A DNA stretch of 64,000 bases from Styela clava (Eukaryota; Chordata; Ascidiacea; Stolidobranchia; Styelidae). How positions within the stretch are numbered: the first letter of the stretch is position 1; each line of letters starts with the position of its first letter. Shown here in pieces: positions 1,968-38,846 of the stretch. The notes beneath the pieces are model-generated. The model worked only from the letters and a program-made list of their open reading frames with translations, was not told where the DNA came from and searched no databases. The stretch is from assembly GCF_964204865.1 (NCBI RefSeq), contig NC_135263.1, positions 17,839,426 through 17,903,425 of the forward strand, in the 5' to 3' direction. A program made the translations under genes and the position numbers.

Positions 1968-2001
1968 TATTTAGGAACTTGTATAGGTATATATAAGTTT
2001 G

Positions 2002-12761: not shown

Positions 12762-15700
12762 TTAGTTAGGGCGAGGAGAGTCAAAAATAGATAACACTCT
12801 GTAATCTTGCTTCTTTTTCCGCATGGCTTGTGCTCCGTTTTTATGGATATACCAACAGTCGGTTTTTTCTTGAGTACCAGGCAGATCCATCGTACGCTTA
12901 GCGACGGATATAAATTTACCCCTGTAAAAAAATAAAAAATTATTTTTAGATAAAATAGTCAGAAAATAGTGTACGTAATTTAATCGGACCTCCTGAAGTA
13001 TGCGCACCAAGATGGCGCACAACCTGAAATCAGGTTGTGTAGCAGGTTAGGGTTCAGGTTGTGCGACATCTTGGTATGCATACTTCAGGAGTACCATCTG
13101 ACCCGCCTGATGCTGCCAAAACCAAACTAAAGTCAAATTTTGCTGTTTCAGCTAAAAAATGACTCAAGGAATTTGTTGAGATAGCGATTAAATTTAATTT
13201 TGGCACGAGGCTTATTGTTTTCCGCATTCGTTTTTGTAACAATGTAATTATTGTTCATAAAATGTATCTTGTACGTCACACTTACAAGGTCCAGGTGGGC
13301 AACATTTTTGGCCCCTGGTCCGAATAGGTTGCCCAACCCTGTTCTAGTAGGGCGTTGCTAGAAGTTCAGTTTAGTGTGAAATACGCATAATGGAAGAGAC
13401 GATGCTTTTGTTTAATTGATCAAATGACTGATATTTTGGGTTCGATTGAGATTCAATTGGGGATACGAGTTCTTTCCTAATTCTTTAGACGAGAAAAATA
13501 GAACAATATATTTGATAAAAGAAAAGTAATCAGTTACCTGATGTACATCTGCTGATGTTCCACCTTCTCTTCACTTGTATTTGAGTGGCCTCCGACCAAT
13601 CCTAATTTGATTGCGTGGTTAGAGTAAGATGATAAACGAGAAAATTGTCCCAAAACACCGTCCGAATGGCGGCTAATTGAACTTAGGTTGTCCGAGAGTC
13701 CAAAATCCAAATGATCTCTTTGATACATTGAATGTCTTTGTCGATGAAGTGTAACCTGATGGCAGAAAACAATGAAAGTCGAAATTGAATGTTACTACCG
13801 ACTATAACAATAGATTGGAATTATGGTACAGGCTACGTTGCTGTAAAAAATGCAAGCTCCATCTGAAGATGCATGTTTATTAGAACACATACCCAAAGAG
13901 CTGGGAATTTTCGAATACCTGATGATTCCAGAATCGAATCGAATATTTTTCTCGAATCGAATCTCGAATACTTGTATGTAATTGCACTGAATTTTTTCAT
14001 TGTAACTGGTCATGTCAACAAATGAATTATTGGAAACATAGAATACATCACTTGGACAGATTACTGAGCGTGCACACACAATGGAAAACACTTATTTAAT
14101 TCAATAATTCACTAAAGAAAATAGTCATATGTCAGAATTGCATTAAAAAAATGGACTTCAATAAAAAAAAGGGGGAATTCACCTCGACCATTGGTGGAAA
14201 GAAAAAAAACAAGAAGGCGGCAATTCGAAATTTTGCTCTCAATCGATTCGAATCATCCACTATTCGAATCGATTCGAATATTCGATTCGAAGCGCCCAGC
14301 CCTAAATAACCACATAAATTATTGATTCCAGATTAAAAATAATACATGTCAATGTAGTACTTTTCAACTTTTCCAATATTAAAAGTATTCTATTCAAAGT
14401 TATATATATATTAAGTGTCTTAGTGATTGGTAATCAAATCTTCTTAAACCAACAATGTTTCGTTATAGTGCCCATACAGTACATATATGATAGGAATTAG
14501 TGTCTGAGTGATTTCTCTTCTATTTAAAACTTTGGTAATAAAATACGGCCATCATACTTCGAATATTTAGTATGATGACTGAATAGCGAAGGCAATGTCA
14601 TATGAACTAATGATCAGGGAGTTTCCAGAACGTATTAAGTTGAACACGCAATTAAGTAACAGAAATGACATTCCATAGGGAAACTCTGGCGCTAAATTAA
14701 TCTCCAGGGGTCACCAGAGTAGACTTTGACCTCAGCAACAATACCCGAGATACTCCACATGGGAAATACTTATCGAGGCATCAGTGTCGATTGATTTATC
14801 GCCATTTTGGAAAGTTCAATCCACAAATCAGAGTGTAATATCAAAAGGCAGGGCAACCTTTATTACAAGAGGGCCAGATTTAGGTAATTGGGTGAAGTCG
14901 CGGTTAAGATATATATTATCCTTTCTAGTAGTTTCAGGCACAAAAAATGGTCTTACGGTATGTTAGGGGCCTTTGCATTGGAATTGCTCGCACGTACCAT
15001 AATAACTAAACTAAAACTCGTTTTGCGGGCACATCATTCAAAATGGGCACTTCTTTGCGGGCCGCACAATATTCTTTTGCAAGCCACATTGGGCCCGCGG
15101 GCCGCAGTTTGCACACCCCTGTCATAAGGCACAGCACCTTATTCGACACTTTGTACAATAAGAATAAAAAAATAGCATTGTTTCGCTCAGATATTTTCAC
15201 CCATATGGTTGCGTTTGTAAGTGTTGTTATGTTCGTAGTTATCTTTAATATTTCAAGAAATTGAATAACTCTGCTGTTATAGTTTTTATTTTAGATGCAT
15301 TAATTAAAACAGTAAAAATATTGAAATAAAATTATGTGAGACAAATAAGTGTTTGTGAGGACTTTTTGTTGAACAAATCTGAAGAGTTTATTTAAAAATA
15401 TGGCGATTTTGAAGAACATAACTTATTTTCAAGAGTCGAATCGCAAAATACAGCAAACCGAAACACAAATCCCTAATACATTACAGCATGAGTTTTACTG
15501 GTGCCAAAGCTTTACTTACACTTAATGACCACTTATATAAAAATTCATTAGTAATCAAATAATATTAATAATATATTATTAGTGAAGAATCAGAGTTTTA
15601 TCGGCCACTAATGCTTACTAACCCGGAATGACATTCCTTGATAACGAAGTTCAATAATTGAAGACATATGTGATACTCCGGTGATTTCTAAACTGAAATC

Positions 15701-18700
15701 ATCTCCCGATTCGATAAAAATTGGATTCATTGCAGAGATAGTCAGGTCAGCAGATCCTTTTCTACTAATGGTAACGTTCCATGGAGTGATCTGAATTCAT
15801 ATATCATTGAAATAGTATAACTTTAAACTGAATTTTCCCTAGACGATACAAATTTGAACAAATAAAGTTCGGGCAAGATCACAAATTTCTGCATGAAATC
15901 AAGAAATTTGCAAAGATACATACAAACGTCAGGATATCACTGCCCTAATAAATGTTTATATAAAGCGTAGGTACTCCTGCAGTATGCGTACCAAGATGAT
16001 TAGGGTTAGACTATAATTTTAGGTACAAATACTACGGGAGTCACTTGGCTATAGTACCCGAACTCGTAATAGAACTAAAATAAGGAAAATTGGAATGAAA
16101 TTATGGCCTAACCCTAACCTGGTACACATACTAGGCTCCGGTGTCCGCCATCGCCATCTTGGTACGTATACTTCAGGAGTACCAAAGTGTATTATACCTA
16201 TTATACTGAGAAAAAAAATGTAGTGACGAAGAAACACAAAAAAACTCATATATATATACATAAATAGTATTTACCAATATCTTCTTTGACGGTAGGATGA
16301 TTCCAATTCTTGAAACGTATGTTCTTTTAGTTCGCCCCGACGATAGGGGCGCTGGAGCATTTACCAACATTCCATTCACTATCACATTTCTTTCGGGATC
16401 GTATATGAAGTTATAGATCTGTGAAGTTTAGATACGTTTACTTATTGTTATCACAGAAAGATAAATGAAGTTTTTAAAATGAGTTGAAATTAAAAATTAT
16501 TGTTTATATACAGTTCTAGGAGAACAAAGCGTAAATTTCTCACCTCGTCTTCCTGTCCATCCCAGTTAAAGCAGATGTTGATTCCTGGTTGGATTGGAAT
16601 AATAAAGTGAGGATCACCCGAGAATCCTCCTCCACCACCCCCACCTCCTCCACGACTTCCACCCCTTGGCCTTAATTTATCCCTCCTCGGAGTAGCGATC
16701 ACACGAGATAATGCAATACGAGGAGGTGCTTCATCGAAATCTGTGCATCCGTCGCCCTCACAAGCCGCCTAAGTAAACAAAATTGAAATCTTGGTCAAAA
16801 TAAAATTGTAACAACCATGCAGAATGGAGATCAAGAAGTAAGTGCACCGCGATGTCGCACAACCTGATAACCCTAACCTGGTTAACATACTGTGTTCAGG
16901 TTGTGCTTCATCGTGGTGCACATACCACGGGAGCACTGAATACAATACTCACACTGAAACCATCAATGAAGTATTCATATTCATCAGTTTCTTCAATACG
17001 GTCTCTTTCCGCTTCTTCCTTTTCTTTCCTTAGTCTTTCCTCCTCTTTTTTCTTTTTTAGTTCTTCTATTTCTTTCTTTAATTCTTCTTCTATAGCCTTC
17101 CGTTCATCAGATCGCAGGACCACAAGTGAAGTGAGAGGAGTCACAAAATTATATCTGTAAAATAATCACGAATTAGGCATTAGTAATAAAAAAAAAGTTT
17201 GTACAAGATTAAGAACGTTGTTTCGAAAAAAGTATGAAAAACGATTGGGATTTTCTCCTAGTAATTGGGAAAATCTAGCAACATAAATAAATGAACACTT
17301 TTCATACAAGAATTGCTTTGTTAATTTTATATAACAGCAATAAGAACCATTCGACTAACTAATATTCGATTGCTCCGTTTAATGAACGATGCGATGAAAT
17401 ATAACAATCAACGATAAAAGCACAAATTTACCTTAAAGAGAAATTTTCTATGGAACGAAAACACCTAGCTAGAATCTATGATCTTAACAATCAAGATTAA
17501 CTTAAACAAATTTTTTGTTGGCACGCCCTCAATGTCTTTAACAATTGTTTCGGCGCTCCAGAAGTGTATGTACCAATATGGAGGTAACTAATTTTGTTCG
17601 CCTACTTCACATCAAGTTGTAGAGAGGGACTGAAAACTATGGGCAGGGGCATATTCACATGGCACAGGTACATACACTACGGGAGTACCTTTTTTCATTT
17701 TTTTCTTTGTGCGGCCAAACTCATTCTTCTTACAATTAAAGCAGACCGTATAGTTAAAAAAATTTCTAATAATTTCCAGTATTATTCATAAACAAAAAAA
17801 AGTTTGACCAGATAATACTCACTTCAATGACATATTTAAAGCTTTTGCATTAATTTCTTCCTTCAGTGTTTTATTATTTTCCAACGTTGCTTCGAGGAAT
17901 AATTCTTTGAGTTGTAGGAACGCCCAAAGTTTTTCAGTAAAATTTTGAATCTAAAAAAGGAAAAAATTATTGGGTTGAAAGTGTTAACTATAAGATATAG
18001 AAATTAATTTGGGTTTAAAAATGTATTGACATTGATACCTAAATCATTTTATCGAATTTTGCAAATTGAATCTTTTTATTGCATTGTATTAAATTTGGTT
18101 GGTTAGGGTTTAAAAAATGTCATGATATAAAATATCAAACTTGATTTGGAGATTCTTTGATCTCTGATTCTTTGTCTGGATCGATGTCAAAATCTATTTC
18201 CAAGTCGTTGTCGAACGATTTTCCTCGAACCTGCACAATAGTGGAAATTCATAAGATCATATTTGGTTGGAATTTTCTTGCATCGCTGTTATTCGATTAT
18301 TCGATTCGATTATTATTGGACTAGACACCATTGTGTTAATTTATTAAAACCAAATTATATTCGGCAGTATGGAAGTACAGCTGTTTGCGGTCCATAATAC
18401 TAAAAAAGAACTGCACTTCACTCACAAAACCTTATTGTACCTGTGAATTTTTGGTACTTGAAGTCGAAAGAAGTCGCTATAATGCCATTTATTCAAATTT
18501 GGCTTGTTAAATCTCTCTTAACTTTACCAGTTTTTATAATTCTTTCAGCATTTCAGATAACTTTCGGTAAATTTCTATCAAATTTAGCTGGAATTTTGCT
18601 AACACTGCGGTGATATTAGTCATTTGATCTTTTGAATCTACGAAATTGCTTTGAAGAGATTACGAGATAATTATATCTTGCGAATTTCTTATTAAAAGAT

Positions 18701-21700
18701 TACCTGCGCTTGAATGGATCGTGAAGGTCTCGCTAATTCATCATCCAACATGCCTTCCTCGCCTAGCAATTCTAAATCGTTGTCAGGTCGAACCATACCG
18801 GCAACAATCAATTCAGACCCAGCGTGAAATACACTGAATGTGTTTACCGTCAGTTTTTCAACCTTTTCTTTCGGATATTCAATGGAGACATCGCGCAGGA
18901 CTGGTTTAGTAACTTCGTCGAAGAAATTTTTAATCTATAAAATATCTTTGATGAAATGAAAAATGCAAACTTAAAGTCTTTTTTACAAGCTTTCGATCTA
19001 GTAAAGTCGTAGGCCATCTCTGAGGGACACGCTCGGAATCGCACCTATAATTGACCTGTGCTGTTTTGTAGGTTCGAATACCGTGAGAAAAAATTAATTA
19101 TGCGAGACGATTGCTGGTCGGTGGGTGGTTCACGTAATCAAGGTCGGTTACGGCTTCGTGCACCCTCAAGTTCAAGCATCGGAAATGAAGAATTGGGTAG
19201 CTATCCTATGTACACGAATTGGACAAGTAATGGGCGAGTCCCAGCGGTTTGCCGTGTGAGTAAGTAAGGTTATATAGACTTTCCTTTTTCTCAAAATATG
19301 AAAAAGGATACATAAAAGACATCAAATTTACATCTAAAGTAGAGCTCTATCGTTAGTGGGGAAATGAAAAAATAAATTTACGACGAAAACATACCAACAG
19401 TCCAAAAACACACCTGTTGGTCAGCATCCAGTCCCTCAAATACTCTTCTAGCTGTTCCACCATTTTCAGCAGCAAGTTTTGTCAAAAAATTAAAATCTGT
19501 CAAACTACCAAATCCTAGTGTATGTAAATTGAAACGTTCTTGATTGTTCTTAGTCACTGAGTCTACGATGACTTTCGTGTCAGTTTCTCCAATTGACGGT
19601 CTGAATAAAATTATTTTGCAACATATTATAAACAGTTTATAGACACTCATATAGAATATAGAAACAGTGTATATAGACGCTTTAAAAGCCGCTTGACTAC
19701 TTCACAATGGACTAAAAAAACGACACAGTAATCGAAGACAAATCACGAGTTGCATTGTCAACATAGTTAGTCTTGTAAAAATGGATTGTTTCGAAATAAG
19801 CGCTCAAAATCACATTTGGGACATTAAAAGCTAGAATACATTTGGTTGTATAGTATGGTTCTTAATTTGATTCATGTACCTTCCATCAGTCATAAAAACA
19901 ATCATTTTAGCATAGTTATCCATGTTTGGATCTAGCTCAACTGATCGTTTTGTTAATCCATCCATTCTTTCATGATGTTCTATAAAATCCTCCATTGATG
20001 GACCTTCAGATATTTCAACAACTTTGTCATCTTCTTCTATGGCAAGTCTGGGTTCTATTGGGAAAACCGGAAAAGGATCGATAATGACTGGTGGCGATGG
20101 TTCAGGCAGAAGTATCGGCGGGGTCACAATATCGGTGATATTTTCCTCAACTCCAGAACTTTCCACTTCCACTGTAGAAACATGTTCGAAAGAACGGGAA
20201 AATTAAATATGAAGTTGACAATATAAATTCAGTGAAATGTTTGAACTGTTAGTAGCTTATTGCCTGTCACTTCGTCATCGGAATTTTCGGCCATTCATAG
20301 TAATCAAATATATCTGAATAGATTTCAGAATACAGTTTCTTTGTTAAAACGCATATGCTGTTTTTATTAAAAAGCTCGAAATGGATAGTTATGTTTTTTT
20401 TAAATTTAAATTCGGTATGCGATTCCAAATATCTTGTTGTGGTGTTTTTAAATTAAAAAGGAAAGTAAGTAACATGTTGTTGACAAGAGAGATTCTATGA
20501 GAAAACAGAAGCCAATTTTGGACCAATAATATTAGTTGCAATAGCCTGGGTTAAAGGAAAATGCGGAAACAATTTCAATAATAATATCTTTAAGTTATTA
20601 AACTGTATTTCGTATAAGATAATGGCAGGCGCTCCACCAAATGCTTTTGATTTTTATTATCCATCCCATCAGTAAGAGCCAAACATAGACACCTTAGTCT
20701 GCGCTTAATAATCATAACAACCAATTTTATTTATTCTATATTCGTGTTTAAACTATCAGTGGAAGAATGACTTTTTGTGGATGTAAATTTAAAAATTTAC
20801 GAAGGCTATAATATAATATTTTCAAATGTAAAAACAAATCTTTAGACACAACAATATATTAACAACACTAACCCTCAAGTTCTGGCATGTATGGTTCCAA
20901 TAATTTAATTGCGACATCCAAGGCACTGACGACGTTTGTTCCGCCACGAGGTTTAGAATCACGTACGTAGGCGACTGCGTCTTCGACCGTCGACTCTTCT
21001 GCATAAGGCATGGATTCTTTCATCCATGGTTCGGCTTCGTCACCAAAGAGAACAAGATTGAAACGATCCTTGAGAACAAAGGTTTAGAAATATCATGTAA
21101 AATATTTTTTGCATCGTAGAGTATTGTATTAGAGTGGATGCTGCGCGTTTACAGCGTACCAGTGCTAAGATGATAGGAGGTTATGTTTTGCTTAATTGTT
21201 GTTGCTGGGTTGCAAAGAATCATATTTATCCACAGCCAATGGATTAATCGATTTCACATTTTCAATACAATTCAAAAACAAATCGTCTAACACCAAATTT
21301 TGTTGTTTTTTCAAATTCAAACACGTTCATGTGATATTCATTACAATTCTTTCAATATTTCACTGGAATTTCACTGACACTGCAGTGTGGTATTCGCTTC
21401 CATATATTCGACCATTGGTATCTTTGCGTTTTAGATACAATCGATTAATACAAAGACAACTAACACGTCTACAGAAATACATGATCTGAATATGTGCTGT
21501 CATTTAATAATCACAGTTTATCATACCTCTTTGTTTAAAGTTTGCAATGTGGAAGCAAGGGCATTCTGCATTTGTGCCATCTTATATCCATACATAGAAC
21601 CTGATGTATCGATAACAAACACGACGATCTTTGGTGTAGGCGGAAGATCAGGAGGAGCAAAGAAATGAGCAAAATATCTGAAAATGGTTATTATTTCATT

Positions 21701-24700
21701 AGGATAAAAGGTATTGGAATCCAATACGCTTACCAACGACTCAGTCTGGTGATGATGTCACCATGAAGAAATGATTGAGATCAGTACTCAATAGTTTATT
21801 TTTTCATCATACATTCATCATTACAGAATATAAAATATTCAAATCAAAAATTTCGTGTCAATGTGAAGAAAATCGTCAAAAACAATACTGGCTACCGAGC
21901 AGATACACCATTGATTAAGCATAACAGTAATTAATAACTAATTAGTAATTATTGGTATAGTATTTTAACAATAGATATTAGAAAAGCGATGCCGGAAAAA
22001 AACAAGGTGACATTTGCAACAGCGGTAGGCTGCTTAAACCATACTGTTTTCCATCAATGCATACGAGGTGGAATAAATTTGATGAATGTATATATAATGG
22101 CTTACCGATTGCATGAAATACTCACCCATTGGCGACAGATACTTGTCCAAATAATTGTGGCCTTGCGACATCATACTCCACGGTAAATATTCCGGAAATA
22201 CCCTTCGGAGACCACTTTGTTTGTGACGCCACATCAGGAGCGTAATGAATGTGTGCAGCAGTGTCATGACGACTAAAATAAAATAATCATGAAATTTAAT
22301 TTATTCAGATTGTGAAGAGATGGCATTTGCGAATATTTTCTATAAAACCATTTTCAAATAATACGTTCAAAATCAGTTAAAACTTAAATCTTTAATGTTC
22401 CTTTTTAGTGCAATTTATAGTATTAGCACTAAGTGAAATCATGATTTATTTGAGAAAAGAAAAAATTACGTTATGTAAGTGTGTGTACGAATATGGAGGT
22501 AACTAATTTTGTTCGCCTACTTTACATCAAGTTGTGAGAAAATACTGAATCCTATAGATAGGGGGTATATTCACTTGGCTAACACAGAGAGTCCCCAAAC
22601 TCGTAATAGAACTAGTATAAGGGAAATCGGAATAAAAGTATGGTTTAATCCTAACCTGGTACACACACTACGGGAGTACCCAAAATTGTACGGAGTTGAA
22701 AGTCGCAATTTTTATATTCCTTTAGTAAATAATCACTGTCGGAAATGGTAGGTCTGAGTTATCGGAGTCGAGTATTTTGAGTCTGAAATGTGGGCCTTAC
22801 TTCAATTCTCTACAATAACATTGTACACCCAAATATTTTTTTATATAATGTATTTATAAACAAACCTTGTTGTAATAAATGTTCCCTTTGGTGCCTCCTC
22901 TTCAACAATATTTGTCAGTGTTGTTTTTATCGGTAAAACACGAACAAATGACAAACGATCTTCTTCCGTTATATGAATATCTATGGTTAATCGACGAATG
23001 GGTTGGTCAGGGTTGAGAACGAGAGAGTATTCGTATCTTCCTCGAACCTTAAAAATAGTTAACAATAATATATCGATTTTTGTATTGAGAATAAAATAAT
23101 CAGAACAATTAACTAATTATGATATTGAATTAATTTTAGAAATATGTGAACATTGCATTACAGCACATATACTTCAGAATAGTTCAGGTGTTTTCGGATA
23201 TTAAGTTCCAAGATACTTCAGTCAATATTCATGATGAAGAAATAATTTTGTTTGTCACCCAATTTTTTTGCTACGACATTGCATTTAATTTAGTACAACA
23301 AACTCACCCTTCTCAAAAGTTGTTGATATGTCAGAATAAATTTAACATGTTGTCGTGGTTCAACGAACATACTAGTTCGAAACGCTCTCGTTGAAGTATC
23401 TCTTGCTGCAACATGACCGGCAACTGTACCTCGGGATTTCGCCTGAAGGGATAAATACAAAAGTCACAATCGTTATGGATGTGCATTTCTATGTGAGTTT
23501 ACTCGTTTTGTAGTCGCTCCAGAAGTGTGTGTACCAATATGTAGGTAACTAATTTTGTTCGCCTACTTTACATCAAGTTGTGTGAAGGGAATGAAACCTA
23601 TGTGCAGAGGGAATATTCACTTGGCTCGCACAGACAATCCGCGAACTCGTAATAGAACTAAAATAAGAAAATCGGAATAAAATTATGGTCTAACCCTAAC
23701 CTGGTACATACACTACGGGAGTACCGTTTTGTAGAACACAATTGATACTCTCTTAATCCCAAATGAAACGTTATCTTCCAAAAACAAAGGTCGTTAAACC
23801 AAATACATATATGGAAAAAACAAGAAACCAATATATACACTGCCTGAAGATATCTTATTATCACAACTTTTTTACATCAATAATTGACCACTTTGTGACA
23901 AAAACTTTTAATGCGGTAAATAATAGCGCATCATGGCAGATGAATCTTAAATCAAAAGTACCTTGTCGTAAACTTTTTTCGCTTTTTTCTTTTCTTCGAT
24001 TTCTCCAACTATTGTTTCATTTTGTAATTCGATTACAATTCCAGTGATAAAAGCATCATTTGGTAACAAAATGTCAAACTCGGCTTCTCGACCAATGTCT
24101 GCGTTATTTGTCACCATCGATGTAACGACGGTTTCTGCAAATCTGAGAGAAGATACAAAAGAAAAAATACTAATTATGCAAAAGCAAATGTTTATTAAAC
24201 ATAAAACTGACATCATTAAGAACGTAAAACACTGAAAATAAAGTAAAATTCTATTTTTTATGAAATATATATTCTATCTCATCGTTAATTTTTATCAAAA
24301 ACTAGAATGTCGTAACCGTTTCTACAGTCTGAAATTGTAAAAGGAGGAATCGTGACATGTAAAAGTCGTATATCATGATGGATATTTACCTTGCATTAAT
24401 GTTGGTTTTAATAGCAAAAGCATCAATTCTCGGACGTTTCTTTTGGCCGACAACAAGCGTACAAAACGTGTACTGAAAAGCCATGGGATTTTTTCCTTTT
24501 GCTGATTATGAAGAAAAAATAAAATATTTGAATGTGTAAACTATGATATCCCTAAATATGTTGGGACTTTACCTATAACTGGAAGAAAAAATGGTAACTA
24601 GGTATTAAATCTATATATTATACAATGATCGTCATCATGCGTTTGTCTATTTATTTGAGTAATGGAATCAGGGAAAATCCCAATATCATTTAATAGAGAT

Positions 24701-27700: not shown

Positions 27701-30700
27701 TCATAATATATTTGTGTTAGTACAGCAGGACTCTTGAATTGCATATTAATCCAAGGTTACTTGGTTCTATCAATTTTTAATTCTTTTTGTATTTATATAT
27801 CGATTTGTTTGCATTTTTGATAAGGACCTTAACGGCATTGGAGAAATGAACGAATCGAATACACATATTTTACAAGTTAGGGTACAACTTATGAAATATT
27901 GTTGAGGTATATGACCATACTATATTTGAGATCTACCGTTATCGGAACCGATTATAGATATCGTCAATATAACGGTTTCTGAAGAGAATTTGAAAAGCAA
28001 ATGCACGGAATGAAATTTTTCATCGTATCTTATTCAATTCATTATAACTGATACGAGTTTTGAATTTGAACGGAGATTTAATTTTTATATTAATTGAAAA
28101 ATAGAGAACTCATTTCATCAACTGGGTACATCATACTGTTTTTAATTAAGTTTATTTTTTCAAAAATACGGACACGAAAAACAGCAATAGCGGTCATTTC
28201 GACCAAGTATCGAAATATTTGCATCGGTTAACTTATTCTTGGCAATACTAATGCATGAACTAATACTATTCCATTCTATTAAACATATAATATCAGATCT
28301 TCAAATTTATACATAGTACCTTATATAACTGATGAATATTTTATTTTCATAAAGTTTAATTTTTATCTCTTTTTTTTTTTGAGAAACAAATAAATATAGA
28401 AAAACAAGGTTTTATTCAGATTTTGGAAAAAAATTCTTAGAATTGCATTATATACCGCGAAATCAGAATCGGCATTTTTAAAGAAGAATTATAGTAAATG
28501 GTAAAGACCAAAAGCTCATTAATCTTATAATAATTGTTATATAGATATGTGATTGCAAATTAATAATATAAATTTAAACACGATAAATCAACATTGCTAA
28601 GGAACCAATGTGGGTATTTTTATCAAATATATATACATGGCAATTTAACCTATTTAATATTAATATATATAAGCTGTATAAACAGGTATTTTACTTTATG
28701 CAAAAAGCTTTCTGTCGAAAAAAAAACAAAAAAAAAAAACAGTGTGCACATACTATTTGCAGCAGTAGAATAGTTTAAATTTGTATATTTAAATCCCCAC
28801 AAATATCTTTAAATGTTGGCTAATTTTGATTCCTCTTGACATATGTTACAAGGGCTCTCGGTTATGTAGAGCAGACTGCATGTAGTTTTCAACACGGTTC
28901 GGGTTCCGCCTCGCTGAAGATGAAAGGCAAATCTAGTTTTCAATCTCAAGGCGGTATTATTGAAAACATACCAAGTCGGAACTTAACTACAGCCTGTGGG
29001 AATATTATGCCGGTTCATGTGATCACTACCGCGTATTATTTTGCAGTTTATCAAGATTTGCGCAAAACATCGTACAGAGTAATGCGTGGGCAGTCTCGCC
29101 GACGAACGACAGGTTTCCGGTAAACTATGGGGATTTCCGTAAACATCTCATCGGAAGGAAGTTCTCCCAGAGGCAAACATGTTATCAGTGCAGCAGTTTG
29201 GGTTAAGTCCACAAAAAAACTGTCAACATAATCAATGCAATCGGTTGTTTTGTTTAAAAATGCACCAGGTTTAAAAGATGTTAAAAGTGCAGAGGCGGGT
29301 TAACATCACCATCGATTATTATTATTGAATCTGTTTGGACGATTTTCTATTTGATTAGCCGACTTTGGTGAGAATGCGGGGGTTTTCAAACATAGCAATA
29401 ATACCGTTGCAAGCGACGATTGCTGAACTTCAACCACGCAAGCGCACATTTTCAGAGCTGTGGAAAATTAATAAAAAAAAAATAATATGAATCTTAGTTA
29501 TTAATCAACAAAGAATTTTTTTATAGCATTTCAGATTTATCATCCATTTTTATCCTTACTACATAGTATCAGAACAAACCTTTGCTGTCATATCCTTTGA
29601 CAACCACGCGGAATGAACCAAGCTCCGAGATTCCTTCCTTAAATATATGAGGTATTGTATTTCCTACATCGTGAGCAACAGGTATTGTCTTTGTAACGCG
29701 TCCTTCTTCGTTGACAAGTTTTAGTGCCGTAGCCTGAACACGTTCGTCATCATATCCATAAGCGTCCAACACAAGACCTACCGATTCCTCAACAAACGGA
29801 TCGTGATCGGAGATCTGAATTATATATATAACAAAAACGAAAACTCAATTTAGAGTTAGTGACTTTGTAATAATGCGACAGTGAACTTTTGCACCGAGAC
29901 GAACGAACGAAATCGCCAACACAATAGTTAGGATTGCATCCCTCATCCAACAAAAACCAGAATTAGATATTTTTTTAAAGCAAAAAATCTCTTCTAAATC
30001 AATTTAATAGTTGAGTGAAAGTTTGGTAATTGCCAGCACAAACATAAATTTAATTCTGTAAAGCTGTAGGTTATGGAACTATGACCAGAGACACCAAGGA
30101 TGGTTTGGAAATTGTCACACTAGTGCTCTCCTGAGAGCCTTTCGAAATTCGAGCGAAGTCATTGTAACACTGTTCGATAGATATTGACAATTGGCATTGA
30201 AATAAGGGTAACTAATCGTTTGTTCACACTGGATTTTGTCTCTAGTATTTTTCCCCATTTGTCATGGATGTTTGAAAATAAACGGTTTTTATTTATCTCT
30301 CGCAACGTTCCTGACTTTTCAGAAAATTCACACGACCTCGAAGAGAATCTTAAGCAAAAGCTTGTTATTAAACTCATTTTCACGCTTGATAATCTAATAA
30401 TAGTAGATAAAAAACTAAGACGAGCAATTTTTTGCAATTTACTACCGGATAGAAATCCCGCAATCCCCTAACACTTGAAGATCACTCACTTATCAACTCA
30501 ATGGTCCGTGTCGATGACGCGAAACGTGTAATCGATACTTTTTATATGTTTAATCATTTTTGTAAATTGAGGTCGAGAAATATGAAATTTAGTGGTCGGA
30601 AGTCAGCAGTGTGATAAATTTATTGCAATTCATTACATGCTTCAACAATTCCAAAAAAATTGCTTCAGTGAAATTGTAGAATATTGAAATTTAAATGATT

Positions 30701-33700
30701 TTTCAAAAATGATCAAGTCGAATATCAACGCAATTCAAAAAACATATGAAATAAAAATGGATAAGTAAAAAGTGCGTGTGAATGATGTCGCAGAATACTC
30801 TTGAAGATCTGTTTTTTTAAACGCAACCCTAAACAAATTAACTATAAAGCAGTCCCAATCGCTGTATTATTGGCCTTCAAAATTGTAAAAAAATAATTCA
30901 TAACACGGGGAATTTCATCATTTGATTATTCTTTCAGTATTTTTCCGCACTGCATATCAACCGTTTTTCCCTGAGGATGATTTGCCGAAAAATATTGGGA
31001 TATCAAGTTTCTTTAACTGCGATCAACCATCAATCTCATCACCGGTAATCGTGGTTATTCGCCTGATAACAATCTCACAATGGAATAATATTTAGCTTTG
31101 TACGCAGACTGATGAGCATAACATTACATGAGATGACTGAAACACCTTTATATATCTGAATTTTGGCAATTGATATTTTCGTTGTCAATAAAAGGAATAC
31201 ATCATATAATACATTAATAATGAAGTATTGATCCTTGTTTTTGACAGGCTACACCGCATTTCAAAAACAAATGTAATCTAACGAAATACGGAAGTGCGAT
31301 TTTGTTGCAATACCATAGCCATTTCAAGTAATTTCAAAAAAATACATTATTTCAGCCAACAAGTATATGTAAAGTAAAAAGTATTGATGCTATTTTGACG
31401 TTGAGTTTTGATGGTATTTTGACGATGATAGTAGTCACCTCGGCCGCTGAAAACCGTGATCATTTTCTAACTTTTCACCAACATAACAAAAACTCGAGCG
31501 CCGCTAAAATAGCCAGTTTTATGTACGACAAACAAAGTAGGAATATTACCTTGTAAGCATCATCGGGTTCTGACCTTCCCTTAGTAAAAACATTGAGAAC
31601 GAATCCCAAAGATGTTTTTGCTTGAATTTTTACTGAACAGTTTATTGTCTCCACATCCATTCCAATGGACCATTCACCAAGAGAAGATGACTCATTTCCT
31701 GCAATTTTGATGTTAGTCGCCCATACATCACCATACCTGATATTCAAAGGGTTCAAAGTTTGAACGTTAAATAGGAATATGCAAATCATGTCGCATTAAA
31801 CTTTGACACTTGAAATGAATAAACTTCGTTAAAGGTTGACCTTCCTTATAATTCATTCCCTTTCGTTGAGGACTCAATACCACCTTCTGTTCGAAATTGT
31901 ATAAAATAAAAAAAATGATCAACCAAGGTAAATTCCAACCAAATAATTCAACAGCGGCGGATGATCGGAAACTGCAGAGGATACCCGAAAGTGTATTAAT
32001 GGGGCATTTCAAACTTGTTTTTGTTTGAATTGCCGCTTGCGCCGTAAACAACATCATAAAAAGGGGGTAGTTTCGATGATATCAACTATTGACAATCTAT
32101 TTCAATATTATGCACCTTTGGCAGCTCGGCATAAGAATCTTAGTTTAATGACATTCCTTGTAAATAAAAGTCAGATTAACATGGTGGGCGGTGGCATATC
32201 TGTTTATCTATTACAAATGTTAAATGGTTTTCGCGTACTTCATACACCATGACCTCGTTAAGGATTCAAGTTGAAATCAAATGGTAGTTAGTTAAAACAA
32301 GTGCGGCTGAGCAAGATAGGCCATTTAGTTGATTATACATGCTTTCGGCACGCAAATTGCAACCTCTAATCACAAGTTTTGTATGGATTGCTTCCTGAAA
32401 GGCAAATTACTATCGTAGGCCTTTATGTGGGAAAGATACATTGTAATATTCTTCTAAGTGTGTACAACGTAAAGTACCTTTGCGACAATTGTAAAAAAAG
32501 TCAATTAGATGAGAGGTAAATGTTTTCATCGACAACAAGTATGGCCCATATGCGATCAACATATAAAAGTACCTATTTAAAATATGACGTCAGTATCTCC
32601 AGAATCAACAAGATAAGGACTAAAAAATGCAATGTAAATATCGAGGAATGCCGCCAGGTCCAAACGTTCTCATTTATTTTGGTTCTTTCGTGTTTTTTTA
32701 TTGAATAATGTACACATTCTACAATGTTTACTCAAATCTTGAGAACTTTTGTGTGATACGACGGGGCGCTTGTACAGTTCTCTCTTTTTATCACACCATA
32801 TTGGCGTGACTGTCAAATATATATTTTTTACAAAATGGCAGGTGGTGTTTTAAACACGCTATGATTACATTAATATGATCAGAACAGTAAAAATTAAACC
32901 GAAGTTTAAAAAATTATAATATTTTACATATAATATCACAATATACATAACGCCTAGGATATTGATCTCAACTGAATGTCGACTTTCATTTGACATTCTT
33001 ATGAATCATATCTTATAGGTGATTTTCGGAAATATTCTCAGAATTTTGATCAGAATTGATTGCTGCATAATCACTCAATTTAAATACAATAACATTTACT
33101 ACATTTGAGCAATTGCGTCTGTGTGGCCTAAGCAAGACTCAATGAGTTTCTCAATAAATTTTAATCAAATCATTATAGGAAATGACATAACTGGCATCTA
33201 TTTACCACTGATTCGAATGGTATTTTGAAGCAGAAGAGAACGTTTGTATCGATATTTCCACTCAAACTTTCCTCTTAGTGTTACTTAGTGTTGAATATAT
33301 TTATAGACTGTCTGATAGGCATGTGACGACTGACAATAACTTCGAGTGAAGGCAGTTTATATCCCTATGGATTTGGGGACGAAAATATTTGAGGTTCATC
33401 TCATTTTTGGATATGTAGGCAACACTGTACCGCTACTAAAATAAATCCTCTATTCAATTTTGACCTTTAAGGTGATTTACAAATTGGAACTTATTATCAT
33501 AAGCAAATTTGGAAATTGACATTAATTAGTTTTGATGAATTTCAGAAATGCACTATGAACTATAGTGGGGTGGCCAACCTGCTTTCGACCGCGATCGACT
33601 GAAATCTTCAAATAGCTCGCGATCGACTGATCGATAATAAGGTCATACACAAAAACGAATTAGAACTGAATATGCTGATAGCTGTACTTAATGTAGTGTA

Positions 33701-33821
33701 AAATTTGTATTTTTTATGTTCCATTTAATTTGATCACGTAATTGTACCCGGAGTAAATGTTTTATCATTCATTACTTATCGATTTTAATATAAGTAATTA
33801 ATAAGTATGTTGATAGGTATT

Positions 33822-33856
<35 letters not shown>

Positions 33857-36800
33857 TAGATGCACGCGATATCTCACGAAAGCGAGGTTGAATCTGCTTC
33901 AAATTTTGCATGTGCATTTATCATAGCTCTGATGATAAGCCTATCGATTCTCGATGAATTATGTCGTATAATTAGCGAGTTATTAATTAATTAGTGATAG
34001 GACACACGGTGTCACTATGAAGTAAGAGCGATGTTTTGGGGGATCCCCTAACCTTCGATCGATAAGTCTTCGGTCTCCGACCGATATTCTCGTTTAAGAT
34101 TTATTCGGATCACCGATCATACAATTCAAGCCTTGCCTAATTTTTAGTCGTAAGTGTCGAAAATTCCTTTAAAAACTCTGCCAAGTATTCATGTTCAGTA
34201 CTGTGTTTGTCCTGTTCTAAAACACACAACAGGCGCTGCATGAAACTGGTTTGACGCTTTTTTTCGGGGTATGCTATTGAATTCACTCAACATCAGACGC
34301 GATCGACTACTCGAGACGTGGCGATCGACGTGTTGGCCACTCCTGAACTATACGATCCACCCATTCCCATTGTAAAATAAATTAATTACCTACAAAATGA
34401 TTTGTTTTCTTTAAAATTTCCGTATTGAACAATAAAAAATCATTTTTGATACCCTTGATATATGTATAGTATTCTTAAATTTCACATCAAAAAATATCAA
34501 AATTGTACAATATCATATAGAAATCTTAAATTTGTGAGTATTAATAAAACTATTATTTGCAAAGCAAAGCCGGTCTGTCAAACTTGAACCATTCATTTTA
34601 TAATATAAATACATATGTGTCTCATTCCCTTACAATTGAAAATTCTAACCTGTCTCCATCTATCTTTATATGCTTGTCGGACCCTGGCTTCATAACGTGG
34701 GTGTGCTCGCAATGACCTTGAGTTTCCAATAGTATTTCTTGCACCGAGCTATCAACGTAAAAAGGTATCACATTGCTGGGTTCTGAATAAAATAAATCAA
34801 GAAACTAGACAACGAAAGATATAAATTTTAGGTATTTCATTTGTTGGTGAAACTAAAAATCGATAGTTGTAGTAAATCAGTTGCAAATTCAAACTTGGCC
34901 GGGATCGCAATGTTGATTTCTGAAGCCAATGGCAATCTGTTATTTTATTTTCACATTGTTCTTAACAAAATACACTGTTTTCGTTTGACATTATTGTGAA
35001 ATCGCCAAAAGAAGTTACCGAAAAATTAAACTTAAAGGGGGATTCATAACCGTGTTGGTAAATATTATTAGTTTCGTTATGACAACATAAAAACAAAATG
35101 TCTAACATATACATAGTATGGTATATTACAAGAAACAAACTTTTAGTTTTCTAGACATTGGCAACTTATCGAAAGTGAAACCGTTGCAAAACAACGAAAG
35201 TTTCAACGAGTAACTCAATAATAGGAAAAAAAAACGCGTTATTAGTTTGTGGTTGGTAATCGGCGGTACAAAGTCCCAAGCGGCATCAGTTATTTCAACA
35301 TCAAGCCGATTCGAAACTGAAACCAAATGGCCCAATAACAATTTTCTCCTTTAGCGTTATCTCCTTGAGCGGTCGAAAAAAAGAAAAAGGAAATATCAAA
35401 AATTCCCCATTGATGAAGTCCAGCAATTGATTGTATTAATGGAGACTCAAAAAGTATGGGTTTACGGGTTTCCTTTTTTTTCAGCTCAATTCACAACCAA
35501 GCCCAAACATATCCCTCTTGCATCTCTCGGACACAAAGAACAAACTCAGTTCATGATCAACTAAAACGCTTCCGCACTTTATATTGGAAAAGCTATTTAC
35601 ACGCCATGTGAGAATATCAATTTCACGCATTTTATGTCAGTAAGTTATCAAAATGAAAATGTGTCCTGGAGATGCATATATATCTATGATTCATAAATAT
35701 TCCCCTTCGTAAGATAAAAGAAAAAAGTACTCGATTTCGTTTGATATTGGTATTTAATATACCTTGAGCATTCGATACCACTGTAACTTGCTTCAGCAAA
35801 ATGACTCCTTGTTTAGCATTCGATTGAACAATATCTGTTGTACGGAAAATGTCGCTTCGACTTATTACGAGAACCTGACAAATAATAGAAGAAAAATTGA
35901 TTATAATGGATTTGTTGAGAACTGATATGGCGTAAATTGTAAAATATTATTCGTGCATAAAACAGCATTGATTTTAGTGAAAATACATTTTTTTGGTAAA
36001 TATTATCCTACTAACGGTAACCGGAACTTATCTGATACGACACTAACTAGAAATTACAGTTGAAAATGACCAACTACTTGTCAAAAGCAAATAAGAGGAT
36101 TGTGAATGAAGAACGATACTCACTTTTCCTCCAGTTTGCTTTGCAATGTGCTTATACAATGGCATGCATTTTTTATATTCTCCATCATTAGCACAATTAC
36201 TAATGCTGTTAGTGAGCATAAACGTTACCACGATTGATTTTTGACGAGCCTGGGCAACGACAGTATCCTGGAAGTGAACATATATTTTTTTTAATCATTG
36301 GTGAAACACTGGCTATGCCACACTGTATAGAAATTGAGCATAATCCAAATTACTTAGCAATCAGAATAAATGAACAACCAATGCAAATACCGATAAAGTA
36401 TCGCCATCCGTATATAAGTGGATTAGTGGTTAACGCGCTGGTGGTAGGATGTGAAAATTTGACTTGACTACTTCAACCGAGAAAATTTTCAAGAAAATTT
36501 ATCTCGGTACTTATTTGGTCGCGGCTGCTTGTCCGGAATCTTGTTCTAAGCCAATATGTATGAGCCCTCGAAATTTCGACAAGTTTGGGATTTGTGTCAT
36601 AGAGTTCAAATGTTAAATAATGTCCATACCTGCAACATGTAATCTTTGGCATCCACGTCGGATATGACATAAATAGTAGATCCAGGTCTACTGTTTTCAA
36701 TCGCAAGTTGAATTCCCCGCATTGCAAGTTCTGGGGCATCTCCACCTCCATGAGCGTATAATCTGAATTAATGTAAAATTTTAATCTCAAGTCTCGTGAT

Positions 36801-38846
36801 TACAATACATTTTATTTGATTCGTTCTAATGGCCATCGTCACAGATATAGCATTGTTTTATGTCATTTTTTGTATTTATTTGAAGCTAATGCATATTGCT
36901 GAGCTATATTCTTCTTCCCAGTTTTAGTTTCAGTAGATCTTGGAATTTCAGCAGCAGGAGATTAATTTCCCTTACTGTTAAGCAGTGTTGGTGACCTTGC
37001 TTTATGCGAGTTACCATTACAATTATATATAATAAATCTCATGAAACTAAGAGTGATTATTTTTTTTTCAAAATTTTAAATAGCTGCTTGCATTGCGTCT
37101 TGCTGGGGTCAAAGGTGAAAAATACGAATAAGTGAGATCGACATATCTTACTTTTCCAAAGCTTGGTGATATTCTTCAGCATTGTTTGTTACAGTTACAG
37201 GACCGACACCAGGATCATTAAAAGGAACAAGAACAAAATCTTGTGGTGCATCAAGTGTACCTTTTGTAAATCGGACGATTTCCTTAAACGAAGATATTGG
37301 CTCTTTTGAAAAATAAATTCATTACACTGGATCCGTGGTGCAGTGCTTAATATTTCATAAATATTTTTGGAGCTGCAAATCTTTTAATTTGAAAATGCAT
37401 TTCGAGCTCATGTACAATGAAATTACGGAAAAAGGTCCGGCGAGCGAAAAGCCGGGCTTCAATCTCTATCATAGCGGGTTGAAGAAGAAGCAAAATGCTT
37501 TTCTAAGATCAAGTAAAATCTATCTGTTTTAATCTTCTCTCTTTGAAATGAAAATTATTAAAAATGACTGACCAAATACATGGCACAGTATTGAAAATTC
37601 CAGTCGATATTAAAAAGTTTGGAAATGACATTAAAAACAGATATCGCATTTCTATATGATCACTGCTTGAAACTACTGATCATTCTTCACATTCCACAAA
37701 AATTAGACTATGGTGTATGAAATGTTATTTAATGTGCTTCCTGCGAAAAAACTGAAATAGAATTTGCGGCCCCAGAATACATTTAAGTTGTCCATGGCCA
37801 CATGGCTACACTGGATAAAACTTTCTCGTTTTAAATAAATAGTATTCGTGTTAGAGCTAATGTCTGTACCTGAGCACGCCGTTTCGCTGCATCAATTTCA
37901 CCACTCATACTTCCGGTATCATCAATTGCGAATGCCAGAGTCGATCCGACACCAAAGGCAAAAAATTGGCTGAATGCGGTGTCTCCAACCTCATTTCTGA
38001 TTCTGTAATTTAGACATGAAAATACCATTTAATGTTGCATATTAACCTGCGACTAATTGGAATTTAGGCTGCTCATAAGTGTATGAATGATAATCATGTC
38101 GTTAATTAAAAACATTTGGTGACTATTTTGTAGTATAATATATGAAAGTTCGCTTTTTGCTGATATCGAATCGTTTTTTGATGACTGGCTTTTCATTGTA
38201 TTTTATTCTATACTTCTTATTTCCAGTAAATTTTGGAAAGCATTTCTGTAAATCGAAGTTTCGAGTATTCTGATAACATACTACATAATTATACAAGTCG
38301 CAGTATTTATTACCTGTAACACTCAACTTCGATAGCCTCCAATACATCATTCAAGATGTATTCTTCAACACATAAATCATTCTTCCAAGATTCCGTTTCC
38401 CCATATTCGTCGATGATAATTCTCAATAGTTGTCCTGCTTTGTTCCGGGCATATTCTCTACTGCCTGCCGAAATATACGAATACAAATTCCTGCGCAATG
38501 TATCGCGATCTATCGGTCCTATCACCGGTTCTGCTGTCGAATATATGAGTTGCAAAAGTGCTTTTTTGAGTTCGACAGTTGAAGCTTCATCTCCATAGTA
38601 ATGCTTGAAAAGTCCACTCGGGGAAAATGGTTTTACTTTGTTCGGATCGAAAGTTTCATTTCCCCGCGGGTGGTCAGCATAAAATGAAATTGCCGCAGCT
38701 GTGACTGCATTTGTTATAACATCATTCAGTGGAGTACAGGTTGGATTTATCTTCTGCCAAAGCGAGTCATATTTTCCGCCAAGCCTAATGGCTTCCAGAG
38801 AAATAACCGCTGCGCAAAAACTAATCACCACAAAGAAAAATTTCAT
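12762..38846 (-). CDS. VWA7-like/ITIH fusion: secreted protein with two vWA domains, 29 exons, 1,731 residues
   Basis: Coding exons on the minus strand: 38846-38314, 38002-37870, 37282-37152, 36762-36630, 36267-36124, 35874-35763, 34782-34650, 31736-31550, 29814-29580, 25760-25624, 25072-24904, 24501-24390, 24142-23962, 23442-23308, 23047-22866, 22272-22126, 21677-21527, 21068-20873, 20171-19880, 19600-19414, 18934-18704, 18230-18141, 17950-17823, 17154-16953, 16768-16544, 16418-16275, 15790-15623, 13755-13538 and 12921-12762. All 28 junctions keep phase and use GT-AG; the total is 5,196 nt with the TAA stop. The ATG is at 38846, because the frame's upstream opening triplet is TTG. A signal peptide (MKFFFVVISFCAAVIS) precedes a VWA7-like part (to about residue 695) and then a complete ITIH heavy chain. 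Exon 12 alone encodes both the end of the first part and the start of the VIT domain, so the fusion does not rest on one guessed splice. It should be secreted to the matrix or body fluid. Whether one transcript spans it needs RNA evidence. Confidence 0.85.
12986..13095. mobile_element. Short MITE (GGTRCTCC family), 110 bp
   Basis: Ends GGACCTCC and GGAGTACC; arms CTGAAGTATGCGCACCAAGA and its complement meet at AACCTGAA/TTCAGGTT. The flanks ATTTAATC and ATCTGACC differ by three transitions, so the 8-bp duplication is decayed. It lies in the last intron of the fusion gene. Confidence 0.75.
13275..13345. repeat. Remnant of hAT termini
   Basis: CAGGTGGGCAACATTTTTGG and, 25 bases on, GGTTGCCCAACCCTG are facing hAT-type ends with almost no interior, probably a deleted element. 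Confidence 0.4.
13896..14304. mobile_element. hAT-like element with AATCGATTCGAAT-rich ends, copy 1
   Basis: Ends AAGAGCTGGGAATTTTCGAA and CGCCCAGCCCTA match the better-preserved copy at 44667-45059 (TAGGGCTGGGCATTTT type). The subterminal regions are made of ATTCGAATCGATT repeats. The flanks CATACCCA and AATAACCA match at 6 of 8 bases, fitting an old hAT duplication. Confidence 0.7.
14305..15622. other. Remainder of intron 27, with a hAT end
   Basis: This lies between the last exons of the fusion gene. At about 15055-15125 it carries GGGCCCGCGGGCCGCAGTTTG followed by CACACCCCTG, a typical right end of a hAT element; I could not find its left end. The rest is AT-rich and unremarkable. Confidence 0.45.
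15970..16183. mobile_element. GGYRCTCC-family MITE, 214 bp
   Basis: Ends GGTACTCC and GGAGTACC with flanks AAAGCGTA and AAAGTGTA (7 of 8 identical). Inside are GATTAGGGTTAGAC and CCTAACCCTAACC, telomere-like runs in opposite orientation. It sits in intron 26 of the fusion gene. Confidence 0.8.
16826..16937. mobile_element. GGYRCTCC-family short MITE next to an exon
   Basis: A decayed copy with arms GTCGCACAACCTGA and TTCAGGTTGTGCTTC and a CCTAACC run inside. It ends only 15 bases from the splice donor of exon 24, so it is among the closest insertions to coding sequence in the window. Confidence 0.65.
16953..17154 (-). other. Exon 24 of the fusion: charged helix inserted in the ITIH linker
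   Basis: After 'YNFVTPLTSLVV' the exon encodes about 45 residues made almost only of Glu, Lys, Arg and Leu/Ile (residues about 1374-1418, for example 'EEELKKEIEELKKKK'). This looks like a single alpha-helix or coiled coil. In vertebrate ITIH chains I know this place as a flexible, often O-glycosylated linker, so the helix is unusual. Confidence 0.7.
17552..17689. mobile_element. GGYRCTCC-family MITE, internally deleted
   Basis: Begins GGCGCTCCAGAAGTGTATGT, carries ATATGGAGGTAACTAATTTT and ends ACTACGGGAGTACC. It is shorter than the ~212-bp copies at 23.5 and 27.0 kb. The target duplication is unclear. Confidence 0.7.
19054..19268 (+). repeat. tRNA-derived SINE, copy 2 (5'-truncated)
   Basis: Starts near the B-box-like AGGTTCGAATACC and shares ATGCGAGACGATTGCTGG and the GGTTACGGC...CAAGTTCAAGCAT...GAAA body with the copy at 60.1-60.4 kb. 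The A-box head is missing. It lies in intron 20 of the fusion gene. Confidence 0.55.
19880..20171 (-). other. Exon 19 of the fusion: acidic, Pro-rich insertion inside the second vWA domain
   Basis: The exon adds about 85 residues (1051-1138) between the 'GGTNVVSALDVAIKLL' helix of exon 18 and the core strand 'MIVFMTDGR'. It is acidic with a Pro stretch ('PPILLPEPSPPVIIDP'). In ITIH proteins these core elements are separated by only about 20 residues. The frame and both splice sites are intact, so it looks like a real loop insertion. Confidence 0.7.
22469..22680. mobile_element. GGYRCTCC-family MITE, left end decayed
   Basis: Shares GTAACTAATTTTGTTCGCC and the right end ACTACGGGAGTACC. The flanks AAAAATTA and CAAAATTG match at 6 of 8 bases. 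Lies in intron 15 of the fusion gene. Confidence 0.65.
23513..23725. mobile_element. GGYRCTCC-family MITE with perfect 8-bp target duplication
   Basis: The element runs from GTCGCTCC to GGAGTACC and is flanked on both sides by GTTTTGTA (23505-23512 and 23726-23733). It contains CCTAACCCTAACC near the right end. It lies in intron 13 of the fusion gene. Confidence 0.9.
26400..26580 (-). repeat. Possible tRNA-derived repeat
   Basis: On the minus strand GGAATGGTGGTCAAGGCATTGG resembles a Pol III A box. The segment is more GC-rich than its surroundings. No second copy was seen in this window, so the call is weak. Confidence 0.25.
27002..27213. mobile_element. GGYRCTCC-family MITE, inverse orientation, 212 bp
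   Basis: Ends GGTACTCC and GGAGCGCC with flanks GTGCATTA and GTGCATTG (7 of 8). Contains GTTAGGGTTAGG near the left end. This is one of the most complete copies and can serve as a family reference. It lies in intron 9 of the fusion gene. Confidence 0.85.
27648..27746. repeat. Short foldback repeat
   Basis: ATGCAATACAAG...CTAACACAAATATATT and AATATATTTGTGTTAG...CTTGAATTGCAT form an imperfect hairpin of about 40-bp arms. The right arm matches segments near 7.73 kb and 53.77 kb. Confidence 0.6.
28836..29175. other. GC-richer island inside intron 9
   Basis: About 340 bases differ in composition from the surrounding very AT-rich intron and hold a 95-codon open frame on the plus strand (28836-29123). 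The frame shows no motif I know and no splice context. It may be an old inserted repeat or an unrecognised exon. Confidence 0.3.
29815..31549. other. Intron 8 of the fusion gene
   Basis: AT-rich. The overlapping open frames on both strands at 30159-30471 mirror one another and have no support. No repeat family from elsewhere in the window is evident. Confidence 0.4.
33565..34344. mobile_element. hAT-like element with GATCGACT-rich ends, 780 bp
   Basis: The ends GTGGGGTGGCCAAC and GTTGGCCACTCCT are inverted repeats, and both subterminal regions are rich in CGCGATCGACT. A perfect 8-bp duplication GAACTATA flanks it (33557-33564 and 34345-34352). There is no transposase frame. A (GTCT)n microsatellite occupies 33822-33857 inside it. 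It lies in intron 7 of the fusion gene. Confidence 0.9.
33822..33857. repeat. GTCT tetranucleotide microsatellite
   Basis: Roughly eight consecutive GTCT/CTGT units, one of them imperfect, inside the hAT-like element. Confidence 0.9.
36405..36450 (+). repeat. Possible SINE head
   Basis: GTGGATTAGTGGTTAACGCG followed by CTGGTGG resembles a tRNA A-box region. No B box or tail was identified. It lies in intron 4 of the fusion gene. Confidence 0.25.

Follow-up and report, generated by a model that had tools for sequence, protein, structure and literature searches.

A predicted ascidian gene joining a VWA7-like protein to an ITIH heavy chain in one polypeptide

ITIH heavy chains are builders of the vertebrate hyaluronan matrix, VWA7 is a little-studied family, and in vertebrates the two are encoded by separate genes. 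Here we analyze a gene of the ascidian Styela clava that combines them, located on the minus strand (38846 to 12762) of a 64,000-nucleotide window (contig NC_135263.1, positions 17,839,426 to 17,903,425 of the forward strand). ITIH heavy chains (solved: HC1, 6FPY, and H4, 9C4F) are the closest known counterparts of its second half, which presents a VIT domain, a hybrid region, a vWA with a metal ion-dependent adhesion site (MIDAS), the GDPH/DPHF motif and an ITI_HC_C domain in the same order; it differs from them in carrying ~700 VWA7 residues where they have a leader and propeptide, in a ~85-residue insert within its vWA and in its placement in a clade separate from vertebrate and echinoderm ITIH. 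The first half resembles VWA7 in its VWA_4-type vWA with DDTGSM, its beta-rich segments and its Ig_VWA7 domain, again in the same order, whereas the fused proteins lack a VWA7_N match and the CxHGG motif, and have ITIH in place of the last Cys-rich domain and tail. The self-cleaving VWD domains of mucins, FCGBP and RGM provide a third comparison: fold comparison predicts a VWD-like fold for residues 1475-1731, with GDPH at its first strands, but identity to 32 VWF, mucin, FCGBP and RGM rows is low (9-14%), and cleavage is predicted here from sequence and fold alone. A sequence-profile search of this domain against solved structures returned 0 matches at E <=0.1, so the likeness is seen by fold comparison only; a passage of PMC10880436 has already pointed out that ITIH C-termini resemble VWD in fold. 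Public proteins of Styela, Ciona, Clavelina and Phallusia share the whole architecture, some of them under ITIH-type names that mention the ITIH half only.

We reconstructed the gene model from the sequence of the window. As the sequence-only reading had described, 29 minus-strand exons join through GT-AG introns (28 of 28) into 5,196 nt, or 1,731 codons, with a single stop, at the very end. Read in its two other frames, the join carries 90 and 132 stops, so a frame open across 28 junctions is not a chance outcome. A public protein entry of Styela clava, labelled simply "ITIH H5-like", is 100% identical to the product. The exons are as follows.

Exon 1, 38314..38846, minus: residues 1-177, likely signal peptide, with what is left of the VWA7_N helical domain (alignment to VWA7 proteins)
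Exon 2, 37870..38002, minus: residues 178-222, start of first vWA; MIDAS DDTGS at 37923-37909
Exon 3, 37152..37282, minus: residues 223-265, first vWA (Pfam)
Exon 4, 36630..36762, minus: residues 266-310, first vWA (Pfam)
Exon 5, 36124..36267, minus: residues 311-358, first vWA (Pfam)
Exon 6, 35763..35874, minus: residues 359-395
Exon 7, 34650..34782, minus: residues 396-439, hemicentin-type galactose-binding-like domain (Pfam, below cut-off)
Exon 8, 31550..31736, minus: residues 440-502
Exon 9, 29580..29814, minus: residues 503-580, beta-rich segment
Exon 10, 25624..25760, minus: residues 581-626, Ig_VWA7 start (Pfam)
Exon 11, 24904..25072, minus: residues 627-682, Ig_VWA7 body; ends in phase 1
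Exon 12, 24390..24501, minus: residues 683-719, last Ig_VWA7 strand, five-residue linker, first VIT strand
Exon 13, 23962..24142, minus: residues 720-780, VIT (Pfam)
Exon 14, 23308..23442, minus: residues 781-825, VIT (Pfam)
Exon 15, 22866..23047, minus: residues 826-885, ITIH hybrid region
Exon 16, 22126..22272, minus: residues 886-934
Exon 17, 21527..21677, minus: residues 935-985, second vWA; MIDAS DTSGS at 21610-21596
Exon 18, 20873..21068, minus: residues 986-1050, second vWA (Pfam)
Exon 19, 19880..20171, minus: residues 1051-1147, ~85-residue insert in second vWA, then MTDG
Exon 20, 19414..19600, minus: residues 1148-1210, second vWA
Exon 21, 18704..18934, minus: residues 1211-1287
Exon 22, 18141..18230, minus: residues 1288-1317
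Exon 23, 17823..17950, minus: residues 1318-1359
Exon 24, 16953..17154, minus: residues 1360-1427, charged low-complexity stretch
Exon 25, 16544..16768, minus: residues 1428-1502; GDPH site at 16618-16607
Exon 26, 16275..16418, minus: residues 1503-1550, ITI_HC_C, VWD-like fold (Pfam, predicted fold)
Exon 27, 15623..15790, minus: residues 1551-1606, ITI_HC_C (Pfam)
Exon 28, 13538..13755, minus: residues 1607-1678, ITI_HC_C (Pfam)
Exon 29, 12762..12921, minus: residues 1679-1731 and stop, ITI_HC_C end (Pfam)

Residues 1-701 constitute a trimmed VWA7, with a helical N-domain remnant, a MIDAS vWA, beta-rich segments and an Ig-like domain, and residues 702-1731 an ITIH heavy chain with VIT, hybrid region, MIDAS vWA, GDPH and C-terminal domain. 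Residues 1-19 are a likely signal peptide, judged by eye. Pfam places VWA_4 at 200-362 (186.6 bits; cut-off 27), VIT at 710-819 (80.5 bits; cut-off 26.5; matched in all 15 aligned fused rows), a second VWA at 953-1041 and ITI_HC_C at 1512-1706 (82.3 bits; cut-off 27). Ig_VWA7 at 610-700 scores 28 bits and is found at E <=0.01 in 13 of the 15 fused rows, while GBD_Hemicentin at 386-481 is a weak match (22.6 bits, under the cut-off of 27) present in 9 of 15 at the same threshold. The VWA7_4 beta-sandwich (PF23610) matches none of the 15; most VWA7 rows also go without this label, and amphioxus P0021 has it. Both MIDAS motifs were recovered in the translation where they had been reported, DDTGSM at 205-210 and DTSGSM at 958-963, and GDPH occupies residues 1478-1481. 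The second half matches solved ITIH H4 (E 2.1e-96) and H1 (E 8.1e-86). A DxSxS MIDAS follows VIT in 14 of the 15 fused rows and GDPH is kept in all 15; P0015 lacks the second MIDAS and P0016 the first, both retaining GDPH, as if the GDPH domain were more constrained than either metal site. The exon 19 insert (residues ~1051-1135), rich in proline and acidic residues, interrupts the second vWA, and TKR precedes the strand that follows; it is longest in the window protein, shorter in P0002, P0004 and P0005, and absent or very short in the fused subfamily B defined below.

The joint between the halves lies in exon 12 (residues 683-719), within which the Ig_VWA7 match gives way to that of VIT; the exon at 24501-24390 is thus shared by both halves, as originally read. 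The last Ig_VWA7 strand is FQYTFCTLVVG (residues 691-701, 24478-24446), and the first VIT strand spans 707-718. A predicted junction model of residues 588-832 (mean pLDDT 79, pTM 0.49, with an interdomain angle that is not trustworthy) contains both strands, separated by a five-residue linker. In 10 of 50 fold-comparison rows a solved Ig-like domain is aligned by itself, its end falling at residue 701-703 (model 114-116; root-mean-square deviation 2.1-3.2), which indicates that the exon-12 strand closes the Ig domain; the remaining 40 rows cover both domains at poor deviation. In the model this strand does not look like a leader peptide. Foldseek aligns the VIT of the model with human HC1 at 34% identity over 125 columns, yet HC1 is absent from the 50-row comparison.

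Besides the window gene, Styela has four fused paralogues on another chromosome (contig C13), read as DNA near 3.797-3.804, 3.821-3.834, 3.838-3.853 and 4.368-4.391 Mb. In all five genes the VWA7 Ig-like domain is interrupted by a phase-1 intron, after which one exon encodes the last strand of the domain and the start of VIT; the 3' end of this joint exon reaches ~13 residues further into VIT in the four paralogues than in the window gene. The public protein of the 3.797-3.804 Mb paralogue, P0012, is 94-100% identical to it in matched exons and extends to GDPH. Between the paralogues, at ~3806-3811 kb, exons of the fused gene recur in partial copies (exons 2-3 next to a last exon, twice), as if from unequal crossing-over.

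VWA_4 and VIT occur together in the VWA7-ITIH order in 16 of 36 protein database matches. The domain order that the sequence-only reading proposed to seek in other proteomes is therefore found in four named ascidian genera and in four JGI proteins.

Styela: P0001, P0007, P0008, P0012
Clavelina: P0002, P0009, P0010, P0016
Phallusia: P0003, P0014
Ciona intestinalis: P0011, P0013
JGI: P0004, P0005, P0006, P0015, on contigs of 4.9-5.8 kb

Judged by contig against protein size, the four JGI contigs, which hold 1,591-1,709 codons, are probably cDNA, because they are too short for an intron-rich gene of this kind. Seven of the 16 proteins are named "ITIH H3", "H3-like" or "H5-like"; the other nine are unnamed, "uncharacterized" or named after the vWA domain. 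With each half searched alone, no fusion outside tunicates was found among the matches listed (120 of 140 for the ITIH half), in searches that score only the ~7,990 candidates sharing most words, so that absence outside tunicates is not proven; these 120 include no unfused Styela ITIH though the genome has such genes, and are thus an incomplete sample. No appendicularian was identified among the protein matches. Three superficially similar proteins were rejected: P0038 (Caranx, 1,652 amino acids; VWA_4, VIT and ITI_HC_C) consists of two tandem ITIH copies with a VWA_4 match that overlaps the ITIH vWA, and the bacterial-type P0053 and P0113, which bear both labels, are too short for such a fusion (605 and 754 amino acids). 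The Styela genome also has VWA_4 matches, seen as matches only, on contigs C2, C5 and C16.

Neither half is entire, and the description of a VWA7-like protein fused to a complete ITIH heavy chain holds for the presence of both families but not for their completeness. In an alignment of seven fused with nine VWA7 proteins, whose middle was seen only in part, the fused N-domain retains both ends without the middle part bearing HTLQDFYSHSNW and CSHGG, and VWA7_N is matched at E <=0.01 in 0 of 15 fused rows. Motif counts over 14 fused rows (excluding the late-starting P0012 and P0014) agree: CxHGG is found in none as against 32 of 33 VWA7 rows (the exception, P0166, is a fragment), the HTLQxFYSH-type motif in none as against 24 of 33, and the GINK-type motif in none as against 30 of 33. 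VIT aligns at the point where animal VWA7 proteins would enter their last Cys-rich domain and tail, and the ITIH half has no leader of its own: one and the same exon runs from the VWA7 Ig domain into VIT.

Trees of the ITIH half and of the VWA7 half recover the same two fused subfamilies, A (P0001-P0006 and P0015, including the window gene) and B (P0007, P0009-P0014 and P0016), with supports of 100/100 and 100/99 for the ITIH half and 100/98 and 99/98 for the VWA7 half. Since both halves split together, the fusion is older than the A/B split; each subfamily contains Styela, Clavelina and Phallusia, and on these topologies the split is older than the parting of the three genera. In the VWA7-half tree the 15 fused rows separate from 19 VWA7 proteins at 100/100. 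The notion that all ascidian ITIH is fused proved wrong, as the Styela genome has unfused ITIH-type loci:

C3a, contig C3, 14.614-14.620 Mb: GDPH seen, no leader identified
C3b, contig C3, 14.662-14.670 Mb: leader (by eye) and GDPH seen
Further VIT-vWA loci: on C14, on C6 and on C3 near 15.7 Mb (C3c, leader seen by eye)

No VWA7 exons were found in the stretch fetched before each unfused locus (20 kb for C3a, 22 kb for C3b, 13 kb for C14, 13 kb for C6 and 9 kb for C3c). The 18 VIT matches in the genome were assigned to 5 fused genes, 11 unfused loci (6 by position only, beside one examined C3 copy) and 2 distant VIT genes on C5. Seven of the matches lie within 0.1 Mb at C3 15.70-15.80 Mb, a tandem cluster of unfused VIT-vWA genes; the member examined carries a leader of its own and falls with vertebrate ITIH in the tree. 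In the ITIH-half tree, C3c, C14 and C6 group with vertebrate and echinoderm ITIH (93/93).

That one gene makes one chain is supported by the identical public protein, by the shared architecture in three other named ascidian genera and by four paralogues with the same intron position and phase. Two adjacent genes, perhaps in a tunicate operon, with the VWA7-like protein ending after exon 11 and ITIH starting at exon 12 by spliced-leader trans-splicing, would make use of an in-frame ATG (residue 689) 17 bases into exon 12 and of minus-strand polyadenylation signals in intron 11. The AATAAA first pointed to near 24810 (at 24817) lies ahead of the stop at which read-through would terminate (24757-24755); two further signals, ATTAAA at 24694 and AATAAA at 24655, lie beyond it. 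Met689, however, is not shared: of the 14 remaining rows P0016 alone has a Met close by, the joint exon has none in three C13 paralogues and in the fourth only one, at the VIT start; and intron 11, the sole intron scanned, yielded 0 candidate start exons. A separate start at exon 12 is for these reasons unlikely. Ending in intron 11 would in addition deprive the Ig domain of its last strand, and the unfused genes C3b and C3c have ordinary leader exons (by eye), so that we regard two separate genes as highly improbable. Even less credence, close to none, is given to an artefact of prediction or assembly: large gene models are often wrongly merged, and some relatives look truncated (P0012 and P0014 start late, P0002 and P0005 end early, one paralogue is partial), but independent agreement comes from the other named genera, from contigs too short to hold the introns and from paralogous loci read as DNA. 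A single precursor might instead be cut after synthesis at the linker QKKRPR (702-707), yielding a VWA7-like chain and a separate heavy chain. The linker is basic in the window protein and several relatives, and vertebrate ITIH propeptides are cut at a dibasic site before VIT; on the other hand the basic run is not conserved, Styela P0007 and P0012 having GQKETPD, and the predicted linker is only ~5 residues between two folded domains. We consider such a cut quite unlikely.

We prefer, as the reasonably probable account, one gene encoding one secreted VWA7-ITIH chain that would be cleaved at GDPH and act as a two-armed matrix cross-linker. Self-cleavage at the Asp-Pro bond is plausible because the last domain is predicted to be VWD-like with GDPH at its start, and from GDPH we infer a glycosaminoglycan-linking site. 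After synthesis the chain would cut itself between Asp1479 and Pro1480, at the edge of the VWD-like fold, and the C-terminal Asp so exposed could then, as happens in vertebrate heavy chains, become linked to a chondroitin-type glycosaminoglycan or to some other hydroxyl of the matrix. Metal-dependent partner binding by the ITIH vWA may resemble that of human HC1, which binds itself and C3 in this way; the VWA7 half would give the same chain a second arm with a metal site. Such a product would be a long, adhesive, two-armed cross-linker of the extracellular matrix or tunic that does not require hyaluronan. Alternatively, GDPH may be cut and the pieces stay together, as in FCGBP VWD domains, leaving an uncoupled secreted adhesin with no glycosaminoglycan. 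This possibility, which we hold to be somewhat unlikely, draws on the predicted VWD-like fold starting with GDPH, on a passage of PMC10880436 in which VWD domains are stabilized by GDPH cleavage, and on the potential absence of the classic hyaluronan acceptor, given that invertebrates, according to a passage of PMC10381214, have no hyaluronan synthases. It fits less well with the stretch before GDPH, which is long, glycine-rich and presumably flexible, and with a passage of PMC7170535 in which vertebrate heavy chains attach to chondroitin sulfate via unstructured C-terminal peptides.

Several observations count against the favored account of a single two-armed chain. The Ig_VWA7 score of the window protein is barely above its cut-off of 27 bits, and the losses in P0015 and P0016 indicate from sequence that neither metal site is needed in every family member. 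The two later signals in intron 11 make possible an extra, short VWA7-only form, produced by intronic polyadenylation and missing the last Ig strand. The C13 paralogue at 3.797-3.804 Mb was seen to its second VIT exon, and later exons were not found in the 7 kb beyond. In the ITIH-half tree the fused rows by themselves are weakly supported (63/45), and the unfused C3a and C3b join them at 97/93; C3a and C3b could have lost a VWA7 half, or the events may have had another order, and the deeper order is uncertain because some tree rows are long, have an unusual composition or were assembled from separate exon pieces. A published proteomics passage gives no gene of origin for its peptides.

We found no description of a VWA7-ITIH fusion in the titles and opening abstracts that our searches of open-licence papers brought up, and by its sequence it is a new domain architecture made from known families; the claim of novelty stands in that sense, but the architecture is not private to the window gene and is already in public databases, partly under ITIH names. 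The "ITIH H3/H5-like" names of public ascidian proteins conceal half of the protein, and the fusion links the little-studied VWA7 to the well-studied ITIH family. It bears on the question of what heavy chains do in relatives said to lack hyaluronan synthase, and the constancy of GDPH, in a group close to vertebrates, makes that question directly testable in Ciona. A broader proposal, which we offer as speculation and think doubtful, is that ascidians have a hyaluronan-free matrix-linking system, in which GDPH-cut VWA7-ITIH chains would be esterified to sulfated glycosaminoglycan or tunic polysaccharide and their two metal-site arms would cross-link the tunic or bind cells or complement, the fusion having arisen once in tunicates with a covalent anchor replacing the presumed membrane tail of VWA7.

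Further features were noted in the window. In intron 9 a 53-base stretch (29457-29405, minus strand) is flanked by cag/gt and open in the phase of exon 9 (by eye); it is possibly a cryptic or regulatory exon; as its length is not divisible by three, its use would break the frame. Several introns contain near-identical copies (by eye) of a dispersed element whose ends resemble TACTCCCGTAGTGTATGTACC, for example at 17690-17552, 23732-23515, 22676-22480 and 16183-15980; it looks like a short mobile element. Outside the gene, on the plus strand, a 651-amino-acid open frame at 1999-3951 has a protein kinase domain and, after it, an ARM-like match, and two long open frames at 56549-61438, possibly one gene, have Myb-like DNA-binding matches, the first below the cut-off and the second clear (45 bits).
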